DNA of 22,924 nt from a virus: the IMG/VR virus record IMGVR_UViG_3300027906_000163, positions 1 to 22,924 of that record; one strand, given 5' to 3'. The notes beneath the pieces are model-generated. The model worked only from the letters and a program-made list of their open reading frames with translations. It was not told where the DNA came from and did no database searches. This document shows positions 357 to 12,298 of the stretch, piece after piece. Position numbers and translations under genes: made by a program. Each line of letters begins with the position of its first letter. Position 1 is the first letter of the stretch.

Positions 357-1652
357 ATGGCTACAACACCAATAAAACTTAAACGCAGTCACACAATATC
401 GGTTATACCAGATACCTCAGACTTAATTGCTGGTGAAGTTGCGTTAAATACCGTAGACAAAAAGTTCTATGTTCGTGATGGTTCTAGTCAAGTTATCACA
501 CTTGCAAACCATTATGCAACGGACTTTGATGTTAATGTTGTTACGTTTAAAGTAACAGTTGCAACATCTTCTTCTGCACATCCATATCACGGTACTGGTT
601 CTAGTAGCAAGTATAAAATTAACGGTGTATTCTCTCCATATCTAAAACTTATCCCAAAAATTACCTATCGGTTTGACCAGAGTGATTCAAGTAATTCTAC
701 ACACCCACTTCTTTTCTATTATGATTCTGGCAAAACAACTGCTTTTACAACTGGTGTTACAACAAATGGAACGCCTGGAAGTGCTGGAGCATATACCCAG
801 ATTATTATTTCAGATACAACTCCACAAGTTTTACATTACCAATGTTCTTCACACGCAAATATGGGTTGGGCATTAACAACTAGTACAAGAAACTTAACTG
901 GTTTTGTTACAGATGATTTATCAGAAGGTTCTACTAATCTTTACTTTACTAATGCAAGAGCTGATGCAAGAATTAGTAATGCAATTAAAGATGAAGATAA
1001 TATGGCATCAAACAGTGCAACTCATGTTCCATCTCAACAATCAGTAAAAGCGTATGTTGATGCTACAGTAGAAGCAACAAACGAATTAGTAGAAGATGGT
1101 TCTCCTCAGTTGGGAGCTAACCTTGACTTGAACTCAAATAATATTACTGGTACTGGTGACATTTCTACTACTGGTAATATTACACTTACCTCAACAGATG
1201 CTGGTTCAAGTGCAGCTCCAATAGTCAGTTTAGTTCGTGATAGTTCAAGTCCTGCTGATGCAGATTATCTTGGACAACTTGCATTTAAAGGTGATGATGA
1301 TGGTGGTAGTTCTCATACATATGCAAAGATTACTGGTAAGATTGGTGACGCATCTGCTGGTAGTGAAGACGGTTTATTAGAATTTGCAGTCGTATCTGGT
1401 GGTTCAAATGAGATTGTTGCAAGAATAAAAACTGATGGTATTTTATTAAACACTGGAAATACACTTCGATTTGAAGGTGCAACTGCTGATGCACACGAAA
1501 CTACACTAACAGTCACAGACCCAACAGCAGATAGAACAATCACATTACCAAATGCATCTGGTACAGTTCTTCTTGCAGATGGAGATGGTTCTAATTTAAC
1601 TGGTATAGCAACTGCTGGGTTTTCAATTGCAATGGCTACAGCACTTGGATAA
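357..1652 (+). CDS. Modular tail-fibre/whisker-like protein with cupredoxin-like domain
   Basis: A 431-residue protein starting at ATG after an AGGGAG ribosome-binding site. Residues 5-50 form a fibre N-terminal module of the GEVALNTVDKKFYVRDG type. Residues about 62-172 resemble a cupredoxin-like beta sandwich, with KYKINGV, YRFDQSDSSNSTHP and HYQCSSHANMG. His116, Cys163, His166 and Met169 are arranged like type-1 copper ligands. Residues 183-236 carry two common marine-phage fibre linkers (EGSTNLYFTNARADARI and SATHVPSQQSVKAYVD). The C-terminal half has beta repeats ending in ADRTITLPNASGTV, a standard fibre strand. It sits between another fibre gene and gp13, the position of fibre and fibritin genes in T4. 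A structural or receptor-binding role is likely. Copper binding is inferred from residue pattern only. Confidence 0.75.
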   Translation: MATTPIKLKRSHTISVIPDTSDLIAGEVALNTVDKKFYVRDGSSQVITLANHYATDFDVNVVTFKVTVATSSSAHPYHGTGSSSKYKINGVFSPYLKLIPKITYRFDQSDSSNSTHPLLFYYDSGKTTAFTTGVTTNGTPGSAGAYTQIIISDTTPQVLHYQCSSHANMGWALTTSTRNLTGFVTDDLSEGSTNLYFTNARADARISNAIKDEDNMASNSATHVPSQQSVKAYVDATVEATNELVEDGSPQLGANLDLNSNNITGTGDISTTGNITLTSTDAGSSAAPIVSLVRDSSSPADADYLGQLAFKGDDDGGSSHTYAKITGKIGDASAGSEDGLLEFAVVSGGSNEIVARIKTDGILLNTGNTLRFEGATADAHETTLTVTDPTADRTITLPNASGTVLLADGDGSNLTGIATAGFSIAMATALG

Positions 1653-4076: not shown

Positions 4077-4361
4077 ATGGCAATTAGACAAATCGTTTCT
4101 CGAGCTATCAAAGATGGTGAGCTCACAGATGCAGATGTAAACACTGCTTCCTTTAGTAGTGGTTCTGGTTATTTCCAAGGAGAGAATGGTAACACTACTA
4201 CTGCATCAAAGAAGGGTGACATCTTTCGTACAAACGAATCAACTCTAAACACTAGTGTGACTATCGCATCTGGTGACAACTCATCATGTGCTGGGCCTTT
4301 GACTGTATCCACATCTGGAACTGTAAACCTTACAGTTCTTGGAAATCTTACGATTGTATAG
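4077..4361 (+). CDS. Small virion-associated protein, paralogue of the 6767-7099 gene
   Basis: A 94-residue protein starting at ATG after AAAAAAGGA. I do not recognise a named family. The C-terminal half (GDIFRTNESTLNTSV, then AGPLTVSTSGTVNLTVLGNL) matches the C-terminal half of the 110-residue product of 6767-7099 (GDIIRVHENELNTSV, AGPLTIASGVTLTVNGEL), so the two are paralogues with different N-termini. Repeated strands of the TLTVNG type suggest a short beta-helix or beta-prism end. Similar short proteins occur in the structural regions of marine phages. A minor fibre or decoration role is inferred from the fibre genes around it. Confidence 0.7.
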   Translation: MAIRQIVSRAIKDGELTDADVNTASFSSGSGYFQGENGNTTTASKKGDIFRTNESTLNTSVTIASGDNSSCAGPLTVSTSGTVNLTVLGNLTIV

Positions 4362-4371
4362 GGGATAAGAA

Positions 4372-4863
4372 ATGGGTTCAACATTAACAGTAGATAATAT
4401 CGTAGGTGCAACCACAGCTGCAAATGTTAAGTTGCCTGCTGGGAGTATTGTGCAAGTTGCACAAGATAAAGTAGCAGGAGATGTTTCTGGAACTGGAACA
4501 AGTTATACTGACACTGGACTGTCGATAGCTTTTACTCCAAAGTTTGCATCTAGTGTATTAGAATTATGTGTTCTTGGTGGTAGAAGTTACATTCAAGCAA
4601 CCCAACAGCTTGATGTTAGAATCAACGATTCAAGTAATAATGCAGTTGGTACTCTCACCAACCAAAGAATGTCAAGTCATTACACTAATAGCGGTACATC
4701 TTTGCATTTTGGAAATTACTGTGGATATTTACAAATTCCAGCAAGTAATACATCTGCAAGAACATATAAGGTTGTGTTTTCTGCTGGAGGGTCTACTGCA
4801 GCTTACTTTAATAATGGTGCTGTATTTGAATGTTACTTTGTTATTAGGGAGATTGCACAATGA
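4372..4863 (+). CDS. Small fibre/adhesin-like protein (adaptor plus jelly-roll-like domain)
   Basis: A 163-residue protein with an N-terminal motif STLTVDNI and a PAGSIVQV strand (residues 3-30) shared with five other products of this cassette. The rest looks like a compact beta domain. The segment TDTGLSIAFTPKFASSVLEL is also recognisable in the products of 4860-5423 and 8581-9243. The C-terminus is CYFVIREIAQ. The final codons form the ribosome-binding site and overlap the next start in an ATGA junction. Probably a receptor-binding or virion-decorating protein. No enzyme motif is visible. Confidence 0.72.
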   Translation: MGSTLTVDNIVGATTAANVKLPAGSIVQVAQDKVAGDVSGTGTSYTDTGLSIAFTPKFASSVLELCVLGGRSYIQATQQLDVRINDSSNNAVGTLTNQRMSSHYTNSGTSLHFGNYCGYLQIPASNTSARTYKVVFSAGGSTAAYFNNGAVFECYFVIREIAQ

Positions 4864-5423
4864 GTACTTTATTCGTAAACAATCTAAACACTGCAAGTGG
4901 TACAGACATTACAGTTGCATCTGGTAAAACAATTAAAGCGCCTGGGTCAGTAGTTCAATTTGCATATCGTGACCCAACTGCTGCTATGATTACTCAAGCA
5001 TCAGCAGCTAGTGATTCCTATGTCAACAGTAATATTACTGTTACAATAACACCAAAATATGCAAATAGTGTTATTTTAATTGATGGGGATTTTCAATTCG
5101 GTCTGTCTAATAATTTTAATAATTATGCGTATATAACATTGAAAAGAGTTATAAGTGGTGGTGCAACAACAGATTTAGGTCATCAAACTTCTGGTGGAGT
5201 AAATTATGGTATTCTTCAAAGAGGTGGTACAAATGCTTATGAATGGTATAGTCAAACATTTACTTTTCCAGATAAACCAAATACTACAAGTGCTGTAACA
5301 TACGAGGTATGGTTTAGACGCAACGGTGGTTCTGGAACTATGTACATGGGTTGGACAAGTTCATCTAATGGCACATTCCCTCATAATGGCATATTTTTAA
5401 ATGCAATAGAAATAGCACAGTAA
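4860..5423 (+). CDS. Small fibre/adhesin-like protein, paralogue of neighbours
   Basis: A 187-residue protein that starts inside the stop of the previous gene (ATGA). The N-terminal motif is STLFVNNLNTASGTDITVAS, leading into KTIKAPGSVVQF. The middle contains SNITVTITPKYANSVILIDG, equivalent to the FTPK..SS strand of its neighbours. The aromatic-rich second half includes YEVWFRRNGGSG. The protein ends in NAIEIAQ, the same C-terminal signature as the previous gene. This layout fits a conserved attachment end and a variable outer beta domain. A fibre or adhesin function is inferred; the ligand is unknown. Confidence 0.72.
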   Translation: MSTLFVNNLNTASGTDITVASGKTIKAPGSVVQFAYRDPTAAMITQASAASDSYVNSNITVTITPKYANSVILIDGDFQFGLSNNFNNYAYITLKRVISGGATTDLGHQTSGGVNYGILQRGGTNAYEWYSQTFTFPDKPNTTSAVTYEVWFRRNGGSGTMYMGWTSSSNGTFPHNGIFLNAIEIAQ

Positions 5424-5433
5424 GGGATAGGAT

Positions 5434-5922
5434 ATGGCATCAACATTAAAAGTAAACACAATTCAACATACTGGTGGAACGTCTGCACTGACGATTGATA
5501 GTGGTGGTAGAATTTTACAACCAGAAAAACCCCATTTTCATGTAGGTAAAACAAATGGTCATGTAGGAGCATCTACAACTATTCTTTGGAACAGTGTTAT
5601 TAGAGACACAGAAAGTGCTTACAATACTTCTACTGGAAAATATACAATCCCAACTGGTTTAACTGGAGTTTGGTGGTTTAGTGTTCAAGCATTAGCTAAT
5701 GATACTGAATTTCTAGAAATTAATATGAAAGATGGTAGTACTAGTATTGCAAATGCAAGAAACCGTAGTGATTCTGGTGCAAACATAAATGCCAGTACTT
5801 CTATTAATATTGCTTATTATGCAACTGCTGGTGCAGAGATAGCACTTAACACACAAGCTAGTTCAAGTGTGTACGGTACTGGAAGTGCGTACTCTTACTG
5901 GACAGGCTACTTTGTCGGATAA
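5434..5922 (+). CDS. Fibre-like protein with C1q/TNF-like C-terminal domain
   Basis: A 162-residue protein starting at ATG after AAGGGATAGG. Residues 2-30 are the cassette adaptor (ASTLKVNTI, then LTIDSGGRIL). From about residue 32 the pattern fits a C1q/TNF-like jelly roll. HFHVGKTNG opens the domain, AYNTSTGKYTIPTGLTGVWW matches the typical strand in which a Gly-containing turn precedes aromatic residues, and SAYSYWTGYFVG closes it like the C1q terminal strand. Such domains trimerise and bind ligands at phage fibre tips. It lacks the EIAQ ending of its two upstream neighbours. Role as a receptor-binding protein is inferred. Confidence 0.72.
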   Translation: MASTLKVNTIQHTGGTSALTIDSGGRILQPEKPHFHVGKTNGHVGASTTILWNSVIRDTESAYNTSTGKYTIPTGLTGVWWFSVQALANDTEFLEINMKDGSTSIANARNRSDSGANINASTSINIAYYATAGAEIALNTQASSSVYGTGSAYSYWTGYFVG

Positions 5923-5930
5923 ACAACAGT

Positions 5931-5938
5931 TATAAATA
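5931..5938 (+). promoter_or_regulatory. Late promoter-like TATAAATA
   Basis: A perfect T4-type late octamer lies in the 46-base gap after the C1q-like gene, 30 bases before the ATG of the tail-assembly-chaperone-like gene. AAGGAG follows at a normal position. It probably drives that gene and the small terminase gp16. Confidence 0.65.
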
Positions 5939-5968
5939 TAGAAAAGAATTAACTAAGGAGAAATTAAA

Positions 5969-6385
5969 ATGGCAACAGCTTCAGAAGCATTAAGTGAACT
6001 TGGTATTACTGAGTGGGTTATGCGTGGCGAACCTACAGACGAATCTCAGTTCAAGTCAATGTTCAGAAAAGTTACTGGTGCAGACTCAAGTGGTACTGCA
6101 ATCGAATCTGCTGACACTTCAGATTGGGGTGTAACTTGGAAACAAGTATCAGACAAGATGACCGCTATTGATTCAGCTGCACCTATGAAAGAACTTCGTA
6201 AACAAAGAGATGCAAAACTCGCTGAAACAGATTGGACTGCTAATTCTGACGTAACAATGTCTGCTGATATGAAAACTTATCGTCAAGAACTTCGTGATTT
6301 ACCAGCACACAATAATGGTAAAAACGCAGCTCTAAATGATGATGGTACATTGAAAAACGTATCATGGCCCAAGAAACCAGCGTAA
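5969..6385 (+). CDS. Tail-assembly-chaperone-like protein (Phage_tail_APC type)
   Basis: A 138-residue protein with a strong AAGGAG ribosome-binding site. Residues 75-113 (ELRKQRDAKLAETDWTANSD, followed by MKTYRQELRDLPA) match the family pattern LR..RD.LL..TDWT..........YR..LRD.P, known from small tail-fibre/tail assembly chaperone proteins of many phages (Pfam Phage_tail_APC). The first ~70 residues are less typical and may be a separate domain. It sits at the centre of a fibre gene cassette, which fits a role in folding or assembling fibres. The 3' end overlaps the gp16 start by 22 bases. Functional assignment is by motif and context. Confidence 0.72.
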   Translation: MATASEALSELGITEWVMRGEPTDESQFKSMFRKVTGADSSGTAIESADTSDWGVTWKQVSDKMTAIDSAAPMKELRKQRDAKLAETDWTANSDVTMSADMKTYRQELRDLPAHNNGKNAALNDDGTLKNVSWPKKPA

Positions 6386-6765
6386 ACGTATTAGATAATG
6401 TTTTAGGTATTACTGATGTTGTGGAAACATCAACCTCTACAGTAACTTTACCAGAGGTCAAAGTTCCAAAAGAGGTAGACAATGATTATGAGTACCAACG
6501 TAGAAATTTCTATCAGTTGGTCGAAAGAGGACAAGATGCGATAGATGGTATTCTTGAACTTGCAAAGGAAAGTGAACACCCACGGTCTTATGAGGTTGCT
6601 GGTCAATTGATTAAGAATGTTGCAGACGTAACAGAGAAGTTGGGTGAGTTACAACTGAAAATGCAAAAGTTAAAAGAAGTACCAAGTAACGCACCTAAGA
6701 ATGTTACTAACGCATTGTTTGTTGGTTCTACGTCTGAATTACAAAAGATGTTAAAAGGAAAATAA
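6364..6765 (+). CDS. 16: Terminase small subunit gp16
   Basis: A 133-residue homologue of T4 gp16 (164 residues), the DNA-recognition subunit that regulates the gp17 motor. The segment EVDNDYEYQRRNFYQLVERG and the following KESEHPRSYEVAGQLIKNVAD are typical of gp16 in marine T4-like phages. Residues about 74-108 form the expected coiled coil (VTEKLGELQLKMQKL). NALFVGSTSELQKMLK near the C-terminus is also a familiar family ending. The gene starts within the end of the upstream gene, so translational coupling is likely. Unlike in T4, it is separated from gp17 by about 3.4 kb of fibre-type genes. Confidence 0.88.
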   Translation: MAQETSVNVLDNVLGITDVVETSTSTVTLPEVKVPKEVDNDYEYQRRNFYQLVERGQDAIDGILELAKESEHPRSYEVAGQLIKNVADVTEKLGELQLKMQKLKEVPSNAPKNVTNALFVGSTSELQKMLKGK

Positions 6766-6766
6766 A

Positions 6767-7099
6767 ATGGCATTATTAACTACAGTAGGAAACGGTGCAA
6801 TTCAAGGTTCTGCAACTACACTTGCAAATGCTGATGTAGACAAGTCTGCATCTGGAGATAAACTTGTTATCTTTGATACATCTGCAAGTTCTTTTAAAAG
6901 AGTTAGTGCATCTGGTTTAGGTGGTGGTAAGTTTCTTGGAGAAACATCTGGTGGTGCTGGAGATATTATTCGTGTTCACGAAAATGAATTAAACACAAGT
7001 GTTGCTATAGATGCAAATAATAATGGATTAGCAGCCGGCCCGTTGACGATTGCAAGTGGAGTAACACTTACAGTTAACGGTGAACTTTCGGTGGTATAA
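6767..7099 (+). CDS. Small virion-associated protein, paralogue of the 4077-4361 gene
   Basis: A 110-residue protein whose ATG follows the gp16 stop by one base. The ribosome-binding site AAAGGAAA lies inside the end of gp16. The first ~55 residues contain ANADVDKSASGDKLVIFD, a strand found in many phage fibre-like proteins. The last 50 (GDIIRVHENELNTSV, AGPLTIASGVTLTVNGELSVV) are the module shared with 4077-4361. The C-terminal repeat TLTVNG suggests a beta-helical cap. No enzymatic motif is seen. A minor fibre or decoration protein is the best guess. Confidence 0.7.
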   Translation: MALLTTVGNGAIQGSATTLANADVDKSASGDKLVIFDTSASSFKRVSASGLGGGKFLGETSGGAGDIIRVHENELNTSVAIDANNNGLAAGPLTIASGVTLTVNGELSVV

Positions 7100-7102
7100 G
7101 AT

Positions 7103-8221
7103 ATGAGTAAGATTTCAGTAACAACAATAGCAGGACTTACATCTGGTGGAGATGCAAACACAGTCAAGATTGAATCTGGTGATGCATTTAATGTTGTAAG
7201 TGGTGCAACTACATTAGGTGGAACACTTACTACTACTGGTGCTGCTACATTTCAAGATGATATTAATGTAGGAAATACTACAAACCTTCTTAGTAATGGT
7301 GATTTTACTACTAATACTACTGGTTGGGCTGCAACTGGTTCAGCTCTTGCGATTAGTTCTGGAGCACTTCAAATAACACCTAACGGTGGTGTTAATGGTT
7401 TTGCTAACCAACAAGTCGATAATCTTGTCGTTGGTAAAAGTTATATTGCATCTGTTGTTGTCACACAAGATGCTGGTAATTATACTAGACTATACATAGG
7501 TACATCTGCAAACGGAAACCAAACTGTTACTAATTCAGGCTTAGGCACTGGTACTCACTCTTTTACTTTTGTAGCAACTGCAACTACCCATCACTTTGCA
7601 CTTGTTGTCGGTGGTGGTACTGGTCAAGTTACAAAATTTGATGCCGCTAGACTTACTGAAGCAAGTAGAATTGTTTTTCCAGCGGTAACTGGAACTTCCC
7701 CAGAAATAAAACAAGGTACTACAGTTAATGATTTAGCTCTTGCCACCAATCAAGTTAATAGATTAAACATAGATGCAAATGGTCATGTAACTATGCCTAG
7801 TCAACCAGCAGTTCAAGCAAAAGTTACTTCAACAGTTTCAAATATCACAGCAGGCGCTTTATATACTATTCCATTTGCTACAGAAATATTTGACCAAAAT
7901 GCAGATTTTAATAATTCTACTTACGTTTTTACTGCCCCAGTTACTGGCAAGTATTATATAGGTGTAGGTGCTACGTTAGGTGGATTACCAACTGCTGCAG
8001 CTTATTTTCAATATTCCGTTCAAACATCAAATAGAAATTATAATGTAACAACAGACCCAGACGCTTTTGACTCTTCACCAGTTTATTTTGGTTTTAATTT
8101 TAATGTTTTAGCAGACATGGACGCTAATGATACATTTATTGTAAAACTTCTTGTTGAAGGTTCTTCTAATACAACAGATGTTTATCCAGAAACTTACTTA
8201 TCAATATTTCTAGCCTGCTAA
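7103..8221 (+). CDS. Fibre-like adhesin with CBM-like and C1q-like domains
   Basis: A 372-residue modular protein. Residues 1-30 are a variant of the cassette adaptor (SKISVTTIAGLTSGG). Residues 35-60 are a TTLGGTLTTTGAATF linker typical of fibres. Residues about 61-186 begin NLLSNGDFTTNTTGW and include GKSYIASVVV and THSFTFVATATTHHFALVV, the pattern of a CBM4/9-type carbohydrate-binding module. Residues 220-236 hold the fibre linker RLNIDANGHVTMPSQPA. Residues about 237-372 form a C1q-like jelly roll (YTIPFATEIFDQNADFN, YVFTAPVTGKYYIGVG). The start is four bases after the previous stop, with no strong ribosome-binding site, so coupling is likely. Glycan binding on the host surface is inferred from the domains. 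Confidence 0.75.
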   Translation: MSKISVTTIAGLTSGGDANTVKIESGDAFNVVSGATTLGGTLTTTGAATFQDDINVGNTTNLLSNGDFTTNTTGWAATGSALAISSGALQITPNGGVNGFANQQVDNLVVGKSYIASVVVTQDAGNYTRLYIGTSANGNQTVTNSGLGTGTHSFTFVATATTHHFALVVGGGTGQVTKFDAARLTEASRIVFPAVTGTSPEIKQGTTVNDLALATNQVNRLNIDANGHVTMPSQPAVQAKVTSTVSNITAGALYTIPFATEIFDQNADFNNSTYVFTAPVTGKYYIGVGATLGGLPTAAAYFQYSVQTSNRNYNVTTDPDAFDSSPVYFGFNFNVLADMDANDTFIVKLLVEGSSNTTDVYPETYLSIFLAC

Positions 8222-8260
8222 TATGCCAATGCGAAATAACATATCTTAAAGGAGATTAAA

Positions 8261-8557
8261 ATGGCAAATCATACAAAAACAATTACATTGACAGATGTAC
8301 AACAACAAATACTATCTAACGACTTATATAATGGTTCAGACAATAGTGGTCTAGATTCATGGGTACAAGGTGCAGTAGATGGTAAAATAAACAACTCTTG
8401 GAAACGTATGCAACAAGAGTGGACAACAAAGTTAATGAATGATGAATCTTTCACTGACCCAATTCCATCAAACCAAGCAGATTTTGTAAAGCTCGTACTT
8501 TCCAGAAGTGATTATAAAAATCGTAAAGCAAGAGATGACGCAGCTGCGTTATCATAA
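8261..8557 (+). CDS. Conserved small phage protein of unknown function
   Basis: A 98-residue protein with a very good ribosome-binding site (AAAGGAG). It starts with a strand-forming MANHTKTITLTDVQQQIL. The rest is predicted helical and charged, with WVQGAVDGKINNSWKRM in the middle and FVKLVLSRSDYKNRKARDDA at the end. I recall similar proteins beside fibre genes of marine myo- and podophages but no established function. The lack of beta repeats shows it is not itself a fibre; it could be an assembly factor. Its stop codon lies inside an ATAAATA late-promoter-like motif. Confidence 0.7.
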   Translation: MANHTKTITLTDVQQQILSNDLYNGSDNSGLDSWVQGAVDGKINNSWKRMQQEWTTKLMNDESFTDPIPSNQADFVKLVLSRSDYKNRKARDDAAALS

Positions 8558-8560
8558 ATA
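8554..8560 (+). promoter_or_regulatory. Late-promoter-like ATAAATA overlapping a stop codon
   Basis: The stop TAA at 8555-8557 is part of ATAAATA, 20 bases before the next ATG. AAGGAAAG follows as ribosome-binding site. It probably starts the transcript for the last two fibre genes of the cassette. Confidence 0.5.
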
Positions 8561-8580
8561 GTTATAATAAGGAAAGTTAA

Positions 8581-9243
8581 ATGTCATCCAAGATTAAAGT
8601 AGATACAATAGAAAATGTTGCTGGTTCTGGAAATGTAAGTCTGGGGTCTGGACACAATCTTGTGGTGCCTGGAACATTAAATATTACTGGTGCATCAACT
8701 TTAACTGGTGCTCTTACTGCAAGTGGTGGTATTGCAAACGCTGGTACTATTACTGCTGGAACAGTTGGTTCTAGTGTAGTTTTTCCTGCTGGTCATTTAA
8801 TTCAAAAAGTGTCTACTAAATTTAATACTGCATTTACTAGTAGTTCACAGTCTTTTACTGATGTAACTGGTGCCTCAATAACTTTTACTCCAAAGTCAGC
8901 ATCAAGTCTTTTATATATAATGTTTAATTGTAGTATGAATGTCTATACTTCAGGCACAAATACTAATGCTGGTGGTATTGTAAGAATAGTACATGACGGA
9001 AGTGCTCTAGACTATCATTCTTCTGGAAACTATGAATATTATTTTCAAAATGATGCTGGTGCTGGAACTGGCCCTAATAACTATACTAGACAAGTTAAAA
9101 TAGCAACGGTTGCTGCTGGTGACACTGATGCTAGGGTGATAAAAGTAGAAGGAAGAATGTATGCTTCTCCAACTGTTGCCATGCGTATTAACCAAGCTAG
9201 TTATTACTACTCATACTTTGTGGTTGAGGAGATAATGCAATGA
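8581..9243 (+). CDS. Small fibre/adhesin-like protein, paralogue of the 4372 and 4860 products
   Basis: A 220-residue protein. The adaptor region SSKIKVDTIENVAGSGNVSL leads to HNLVVPGTLNITG. A Gly/Ala/Thr-rich linker (TLTGALTASGGIANAGTITA) follows. The outer part has FTDVTGASITFTPKSASSLL, the same strand as in the 4372 and 4860 products, and ends in YYSYFVVEEIMQ. This is the same organisation as the earlier pair but with a longer linker. The last codons (GAGGAGATAATGCAATGA) carry the ribosome-binding site and start codon of the next gene. A variable adhesin role is inferred. Confidence 0.72.
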   Translation: MSSKIKVDTIENVAGSGNVSLGSGHNLVVPGTLNITGASTLTGALTASGGIANAGTITAGTVGSSVVFPAGHLIQKVSTKFNTAFTSSSQSFTDVTGASITFTPKSASSLLYIMFNCSMNVYTSGTNTNAGGIVRIVHDGSALDYHSSGNYEYYFQNDAGAGTGPNNYTRQVKIATVAAGDTDARVIKVEGRMYASPTVAMRINQASYYYSYFVVEEIMQ

Positions 9244-9878
9244 GTACATTAAAAGTAGATACAATCGCAACAAGAAGTGGTTCTGGCAATATTACTGCAA
9301 GTAATACTATTGTTGGTAACTTAACTGGAAATGTAACTGGAAATGTAACTGGTAACTTAACTGGAAATGTAACTGGAAACCCATCATTTGGTGGTACTCT
9401 TGCTGTTACTGGAAAAATTACATCTACTGCTGGTATTACATTTGGTTCTGATACTGCGGCTGAAAATGTTCTTGATGATTATGAAGAAGGCACCCACACT
9501 ATGACATTTACTATGACAGGCAGTGGTACAGCATCTGCTGGAAGAAACAAAATGGGTTATACTAAAATTGGGAATATGGTTACTTGTACTTCTGAAATGC
9601 AGATTGGTTCAGTAAGTAGTCCAGTTGGTTCTTTGAGAATATCACTACCATATGTTATTAAAAACAATACTGGTGATAGAGAAAACTTTTTTGGATTTTC
9701 ACCAGTTCCTTATAATGCCGCTCTGGCAAACGGACACAATATTGTGCCAATATGTATAGGAAATGCTAATGTAAGTTATGTCACATTTCTATATCCTACA
9801 AGTAATGGTGCTTTTGCTGATTTTACACCAACGGCTAATGATGTATTTAATTTTACTTTTAGTTATTTTACTAACTAA
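9240..9878 (+). CDS. Fibre-like protein with GN[VL]T repeats
   Basis: A 212-residue protein starting in the ATGA overlap with the previous gene. The adaptor STLKVDTIATRSGSGNI is followed by a tandem GN[VL]T repeat (residues 26-45), a common phage fibre stalk. FGGTLAVTGKITSTAGITFG is the usual linker after it. Residues from about 77 carry VLDDYEEGTHTMTFTM and YTKIGNMVTC. This globular module is frequent in phage fibres, where it usually reads LDDYEEGTWTP and YTKIGN.V. The C-terminus is aromatic (FNFTFSYFTN). Likely a virion fibre or receptor-binding protein. It is the last member of the cassette carrying the adaptor motif. Confidence 0.74.
   Translation: MSTLKVDTIATRSGSGNITASNTIVGNLTGNVTGNVTGNLTGNVTGNPSFGGTLAVTGKITSTAGITFGSDTAAENVLDDYEEGTHTMTFTMTGSGTASAGRNKMGYTKIGNMVTCTSEMQIGSVSSPVGSLRISLPYVIKNNTGDRENFFGFSPVPYNAALANGHNIVPICIGNANVSYVTFLYPTSNGAFADFTPTANDVFNFTFSYFTN
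9315..9374 (+). repeat. Five tandem 12-bp units encoding GN[VL]T
   Basis: Units in order are A B B A B, where A is GGTAACTTAACT (GNLT) and B is GGAAATGTAACT (GNVT). They end in a partial sixth unit (GGAAAC). The period of 12 keeps the reading frame. The order suggests duplication of an AB pair by slippage or unequal recombination in the fibre stalk. Confidence 0.9.
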
Positions 9879-11848: not shown

Positions 11849-12009
11849 TAGAAAGTCCATGCATTAAAGTATGTACACTTGAAGGTAATATCTGTATTGG
11901 GTGTTACAGAACTCAGGATGAAATCAGGGAATGGATGATATTTTCTGATGAACAGAAAAAAGAAACCTTAGAAAAAATAAAACTTAGAAAACACCAAATT
12001 CCTACATAA
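11842..12009 (+). CDS. DUF1289-like small Cys-rich protein (TTG start)
   Basis: A 55-residue ORF that overlaps the gp17 stop by seven bases. The sequence ESPCIKVCTL, then CIGCYRTQDEIREW and SDEQKK, is the DUF1289 signature (SPC..VC......C.GC.RT.DEI..W). Its four Cys residues (7, 11, 18, 21) could bind a metal or Fe-S cluster. The function of the family is not established. An in-frame TGA at 11833-11835 limits the start to the TTG at 11842, which gives a start just before the conserved SPC. The ribosome-binding site is weak, so expression probably depends on coupling to gp17. Its 3' end overlaps the 3' end of the opposite-strand gene by eight bases. Confidence 0.72.
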   Translation: MVVESPCIKVCTLEGNICIGCYRTQDEIREWMIFSDEQKKETLEKIKLRKHQIPT

Positions 12010-12298
12010 TATCAATAATGTCGTGTTCGTATTTAATATAACAATTGGAACAAACTACTTTAGATTTTTCTATGAGATTGACTACTTCTTTTCTAGATTC
12101 TTCATTTAGACCCAATCGTTTAGATTTAAAACGAATTTCTTTATCGTAGGGGTAAAATTTAAGACAAGCTGTCTCTGGTTCACCACAATGATGACAAGAG
12201 TGAGATGCAAGATATTCATTCAACCAGATAATTCTTAGGTTATAGTTTTTCTTTGCAACTTCTTTTATGGTTTTTTGGTATCGTTTATAGTATGACAT
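12002..12298 (-). CDS. Degenerate HNH-like zinc protein
   Basis: The only minus-strand gene I support. The 98-residue product has two knuckles, CHHCGE (Cys35, Cys38) and CSNC (Cys83, Cys86), with spacing and flanks of the phage HNH endonuclease family (W...YL..H.C..CGE....CL.F........CVVCANCH). The His residues expected after the F in the first motif and after the second knuckle are missing: FYPYD replaces FHH/FDH, and CYIKYEH replaces CH..R. It may therefore have lost nuclease activity and remain as a zinc-ribbon DNA-binding protein, or be a decaying homing-type element. It sits between gp17 and gp18, transcribed against all neighbours. Confidence 0.65.
   Translation of the reverse strand: MSYYKRYQKTIKEVAKKNYNLRIIWLNEYLASHSCHHCGEPETACLKFYPYDKEIRFKSKRLGLNEESRKEVVNLIEKSKVVCSNCYIKYEHDIIDIM

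Follow-up and report, generated by a model that had tools for sequence, protein, structure and literature searches.

The locus and its fiber gene

The window, by which is meant the whole 22.9-kb stretch of DNA that was analyzed (22,924 nucleotides), is DNA of a T4-like marine phage, and its major capsid protein was closest, among those of isolates, to the proteins of Methylophilales phage Melnitz (74.8%), Pelagibacter phage Mosig (73.6%), and HTVC008M (71.6%). A tail fiber gene lies directly upstream of neck and sheath-stabilizer genes resembling gp13, gp14, and gp15, and a similar gene order is found in the Melnitz phages. The features of this gene are listed in Table 1. In close relatives the same N-terminal segment precedes the cupredoxin domain; from its profile matches, this segment probably provides attachment to the baseplate or to an adaptor. 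Re-reading of the sequence and its translation yielded the open reading frame, residue numbers, and motifs that the first-pass annotation had reported. That annotation had set the domain at positions 357 to 875; the location of the motifs was correct, while the end was placed too early, as the domain reaches ~890.

Two other regions of the window were noted. About ten short fiber-like open reading frames, several of which have N termini that are alike (of the "MSxLKVDTI..." type), occupy positions 4077 to 9878, with the gp15-like gene on one side and the terminase gene on the other. A 98-aa open reading frame on the minus strand (positions 12002 to 12298) is flanked by the genes for terminase and tail sheath, which run in the opposite direction; it contains two CxxC pairs, resembles HNH endonucleases, and is possibly a homing endonuclease.

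Table 1. Features of the fiber gene in the window, with predicted roles where these are given
Feature	Positions	Strand	Codon	Evidence or remark
Tail fiber protein	357..1652	+		ATG at 357, 431 aa; PHROG tail fiber protein, E 1.2e-37
N-terminal segment, residues 1-59, "TPIKLKRS...GEVALNT" type	357..533	+		phrog_32294 baseplate wedge subunit, 6.8e-13; phrog_29752
Cupredoxin domain (predicted), residues ~60-178	534..890	+		AF2 model, fold matches, hhalign
His116, predicted first equatorial copper ligand, in an HP motif just before a strand	702..704	+	CAC	Invariant in A2
Cys163, predicted copper ligand, sole Cys of the fiber protein	843..845	+	TGT	Invariant in A2; kept across copies
His166, predicted second equatorial His ligand	852..854	+	CAC	Invariant in A2; kept across copies
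Met169, probable axial ligand, amicyanin-like spacing	861..863	+	ATG	Invariant in A2; kept across copies
Fiber shaft (presumed role) and C-terminal part, residues 179-431	891..1652	+		PHROG tail-fiber profile matches

Predicted fold of the domain

An AlphaFold model of residues 50 to 185, for which an alignment of 56 relatives (A2) was the input, contained eight strands and had a pLDDT of 91.7 and a pTM of 0.83. When this model was compared with the PDB using Foldseek, cupredoxins filled almost all of the first 50 ranks, among them rusticyanin, three-domain nitrite reductase, laccases, pseudoazurin, and the purple cupredoxin of Nitrosopumilus, at modest E values of ~1e-3 (none below 1.3e-3) and with TM-scores of 0.4 to 0.5. 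Realignment with VIA, which covered the structures on Foldseek's list, gave Z scores of up to 8.9, with cupredoxins in nearly all of the top rows. A second model, made for a distant relative (L148; alignment A5), had a pLDDT of 94.2 and again detected cupredoxins, besides which its Foldseek list held a few unrelated sandwiches; its alignment with the cupredoxin domain of 2dv6 had a Z score of 9.7 and an rmsd of 2.4 over 97 residues. Structural matches in BFVD included small proteins labeled "beta-sandwich" from Pithovirus LCPAC and Marseillevirus LCMAC.

In the numbering of the window model, the Cys ends strand E109-114, the following His and Met precede strand E122-125, and the first His (H67) precedes strand E69-72; the ligands of the L148 model were placed in the same way relative to its strands. 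A first His beside a strand, a Cys at a strand end, and a His and Met in the next loop match the layout of cupredoxins. The Greek-key sandwich on which the first-pass annotation had staked its reading was consistent with the eight strands of both models and with best solved matches that were nearly all cupredoxins, the topology being judged from the strand count and fold matches of the two models. A cupredoxin fold for residues ~60 to 178 is, hence, well supported by modeling, though not proven.

Sequence link to known cupredoxins

Used as a single query, the window protein matched no family in Pfam, NCBIfam, or the PDB sequences; PF00127 (Copper-bind) gave no hit to it, and a search of the window record with this model found nothing. 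The cupredoxin link of the window fiber was seen only at the profile level. Alignment of A2 by hhalign with an alignment of seven cupredoxins from marine genomes gave a probability of 96.8% and an E value of 2.9e-10, and the His, Cys, His, and Met of the two families were aligned together. Sixty column-shuffled controls reached at most 1.8%, and the reversed alignment reached 0.2%. Elsewhere in the family the link extended to Pfam itself: one flavobacterial place was matched both by the phage profile (4.3e-4) and, above the cut-off, by Copper-bind (2.7e-7), and the whole proximal tail fiber PSSM2_298 of Prochlorococcus phage P-SSM2 scored 23.3 bits against a PF00127 cut-off of 21.2 bits through the second of its copies.

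PF25489 (At5g54830-like domain), a domain of a plant CYBDOM-type protein, weakly matched 12 of the 56 relatives (best 3.3e-4, below the cut-off) and scored 18.5 bits with the P-SSM2 copy against a cut-off of 27 bits; it gave no hit to the window protein, and a genome search with this model found nothing. Matches to the fimbrial adhesin 6h1x (E 0.07), SpaA, TMEM141, and other weak candidates were taken as chance.

The four putative ligands and their conservation

The fiber protein contains the pattern H-(30-60)-C-x2-H-x2-M a single time, and none of 20,000 shuffles of its residues produced it. The spacing of Cys, His, and Met had been described in the first-pass annotation as shorter than that of plastocyanin, which is true: plastocyanin has Cys-x2-His-x4-Met, as in the CEPHRGAGM of L259. 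Amicyanin, a type-1 copper protein with a functional site whose ligands are His53, Cys92, His95, and Met98 and in which Asn54 follows the first His (PMC12723479), has the spacing seen in the window, and the short spacing is therefore no argument against a copper site. The residue after the first His was Pro in 88% of clusters formed at 70% identity and is Pro117 in the window, unlike in most small cupredoxins. With Pro in the place of the Asn54 of amicyanin, hydrogen bonding around the Cys sulfur may differ from the usual arrangement. Laccases likewise have His-Pro at their type-1 site.

All four ligands, invariant in A2, were kept in 212 of 219 distinct copies (258 loci), so that the conservation on which the first-pass annotation depended was found in its homologues. 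The exceptions were two copies cut or altered at their ends, L190 (in which Asp replaces His and Leu replaces Met), and copies without the whole site. Exactly one Cys was present in 215 of the 219 copies, and as Cys163 is the only Cys of the window protein, it cannot be explained by an intrachain disulfide. When the copies were clustered at 70% identity (42 clusters), the entropy ranks of the ligands were 5th to 8th among 105 columns. In a joint set of 230 copies, His, Cys, and His were kept in 221.

Copies from isolate phages were more varied. The full pattern was present in 21 of the 32 detected; of the remainder, two kept His, Cys, and His without a Met at the usual place and most others had no site. 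None of the ligands was present in some of the related sandwiches of gp7-like proteins from cyanophages, indicating that the fold can serve a virion without metal, and all four were also lost from the degenerate first copies in L167 and L168. When the site was lost, His and Cys mostly went together and only rarely singly; such mostly all-or-none sites are as predicted by a shared metal.

Spread of the domain family

The first-pass annotation was right to place the domain in a phage fiber; it is not peculiar to this fiber and belongs instead to a large family. There were 47 close viral relatives, and more distant ones were detected in at least 582 stretches of IMG/VR (588 with a second query) and in 50 records of isolate phages with the window copy as the query or up to 278 with that of S-TIM5. 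The carriers include phages of SAR11, OM43, Prochlorococcus, and Synechococcus, with both large T4-like and small (36 to 40 kb) genomes. No clear copy was found in the 40 kb scanned of HTVC008M, a close relative by capsid protein. The proteins concerned were annotated as tail fibers, gp7 baseplate wedge, gp9/gp10-type connector, or virion structural proteins and also included proximal tail fibers; PHROGs already places the domain inside tail fiber and baseplate wedge families. Its position within these proteins ranged from before residue 50 to beyond residue 800, as would be expected of a shuffled module.

PSSM2_298 (L254:18226-21510) is a proximal tail fiber with two cupredoxin copies, and in S-ShM2, S-RIM4, and S-H35 (L272, L273, and L274) copies were present in gp9/gp10-type baseplate connector and gp7-like proteins, with the site full in some and wholly lost in others. 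Outside phages, single or double copies were found in Flavobacteriaceae genomes (G002-G004, G007, and G009; L152, L155, L158, L164, and L167) within open frames of 5,494 to 9,219 aa, which look like surface adhesins.

Interpretation

The initial reading of a cupredoxin-like domain with a complete type-1 ligand set is supported by the AlphaFold models and their structural matches, by the profile-profile comparison, and by the near-invariant ligands. Residues ~60 to 178 of the fiber are probably a type-1 copper domain carried on the virion. The role that we favor, with moderate confidence, is that of a real cupredoxin domain which binds one copper ion and serves the host-contacting tail as a structural or adhesive module stapled by the metal. 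The presence, on one fold in baseplate proteins, of copies with and without the putative metal site, and of copies in very large bacterial surface-like proteins, argues against an electron carrier and in favor of a module for structure or adhesion.

Under this proposal, the domain would lie between the baseplate-attachment segment and the fiber shaft, and its amicyanin-spaced type-1 site (His116, Cys163, and His166, with Met169 as the axial ligand) would hold a single copper ion. The apoprotein would be made and folded in the host cytoplasm, with copper being loaded at lysis or from sea water. The ion would then pin the loops together at one end of the sandwich, and the domain would either stabilize the fiber or provide a binding face. 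Marine phages would shuffle this family among fibers, baseplate proteins of the gp7, gp9, and gp10 types, and proximal tail fibers.

That the motif arose by chance or through an assembly artefact has a negligible probability; the shuffling result, the counts of viral relatives (47 close ones and a minimum of 582 that are more distant), and the presence of the domain in isolates already refute it. A metal-free sandwich, kept as a structural domain with the four residues retained for packing, would accord with the copies that lack ligands, in L167/L168 and in gp7-like proteins of cyanophages, and with the frequency of beta-sandwiches in fibers. Conservation of a single unpaired Cys together with His, His, and Met through copies of 30 to 50% identity, and their loss mostly together and rarely singly, argue against this, and we regard it as unlikely.

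A broader and more tentative proposal, possible though doubtful, is that marine phages infecting the most abundant bacteria of the ocean display cupredoxin domains loaded with copper on their fibers and baseplates and use the copper in infection, as receptor bait or as a redox trigger; virions would then also form a reservoir of copper bound to protein in sea water. As bait (a "copper Trojan horse"), the loaded domain would dock on a copper receptor of the host outer membrane or on a host copper protein and so start adsorption, by analogy with the hypothesis for iron at HxH sites of T4-like tail fibers; metal in marine phage tail fibers has been proposed, for iron, as bait for metal receptors (PMC11705849). 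Phages that infect SAR11, OM43, and marine cyanobacteria have the domain on their fibers and baseplates, which fits such a role; however, no receptor is known, the domain is near the N terminus of the window fiber and away from the distal tip, its position varies widely among proteins, and it is also found in giant bacterial proteins, so that we consider docking of this kind rather unlikely. As a redox module, the domain would cycle between Cu(II) and Cu(I) at the cell surface or in the periplasm, either sensing the redox state of the host to trigger the tail or passing electrons. The full ligand set is like that of electron-transfer cupredoxins, and cyanophages carry petE, a separate gene for soluble plastocyanin (PMC2984593), yet a fiber has no known redox partner or electron path, Pro follows the ligand His, and copies exist in phages of nonphotosynthetic hosts; this role appears quite unlikely. 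The structural or adhesive copper module is the reading retained here.

The fold and the site are known, and it is their setting that is new; a sister copy in P-SSM2 is already visible to Pfam. The open-licence PMC literature, in which absence is no proof, yielded no paper describing a phage tail with a cupredoxin domain. A complete type-1 copper site on a host-contacting part of the virion would extend a classical metalloprotein fold to a new context. The proposal makes testable both copper binding by phage particles and a dependence of ocean phage adsorption on a trace metal apart from iron. It also assigns an identity to a domain known in PHROGs solely as a component of tail fiber and baseplate families.

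Comparison with known systems

The window domain was also considered as a petE auxiliary gene, an identity ruled out by petE being a separate soluble cyanophage gene. With the plastocyanin/azurin family (PF00127) the domain shares its predicted fold and a profile-profile match, and Bacteroidetes members with HPFYIKT...YYQCSxHNGM have the HP and C-x2-H-x2-M motifs in common with it; plastocyanin itself differs in the longer interval between His and Met. PSSM2_298 has the same domain family, in two copies and likewise in a fiber, but is only distantly similar to the window copy and differs in fiber architecture, with a Peptidase_S74 chaperone near its end. The best structural matches (Z scores of 8.9 for the window model and 9.7 for the L148 model) were cupredoxin domains, those of three-domain copper nitrite reductase (2dv6) and of two-domain laccases, although these are enzymes with further copper centers and had identities of 7 to 19%. 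Metal has also been proposed in the tail fibers of T4 (gp37) and alterophages, where it is iron at His-x-His sites in a trimeric fiber; the window protein has no HxH, its His residues being at 12, 52, 75, 78, 116, 160, 166, 223, 320, and 380. The closest parallel for the site is amicyanin of Paracoccus denitrificans, to which no direct sequence match of the window domain was found. Amicyanin is a soluble periplasmic electron carrier outside virions, exchanging electrons with methylamine dehydrogenase, a role that there is no reason to look for in a fiber, with Asn54 where the window has Pro117, whereas the order and spacing of the ligands, a His followed by Cys-x2-His-x2-Met, are the same in both.
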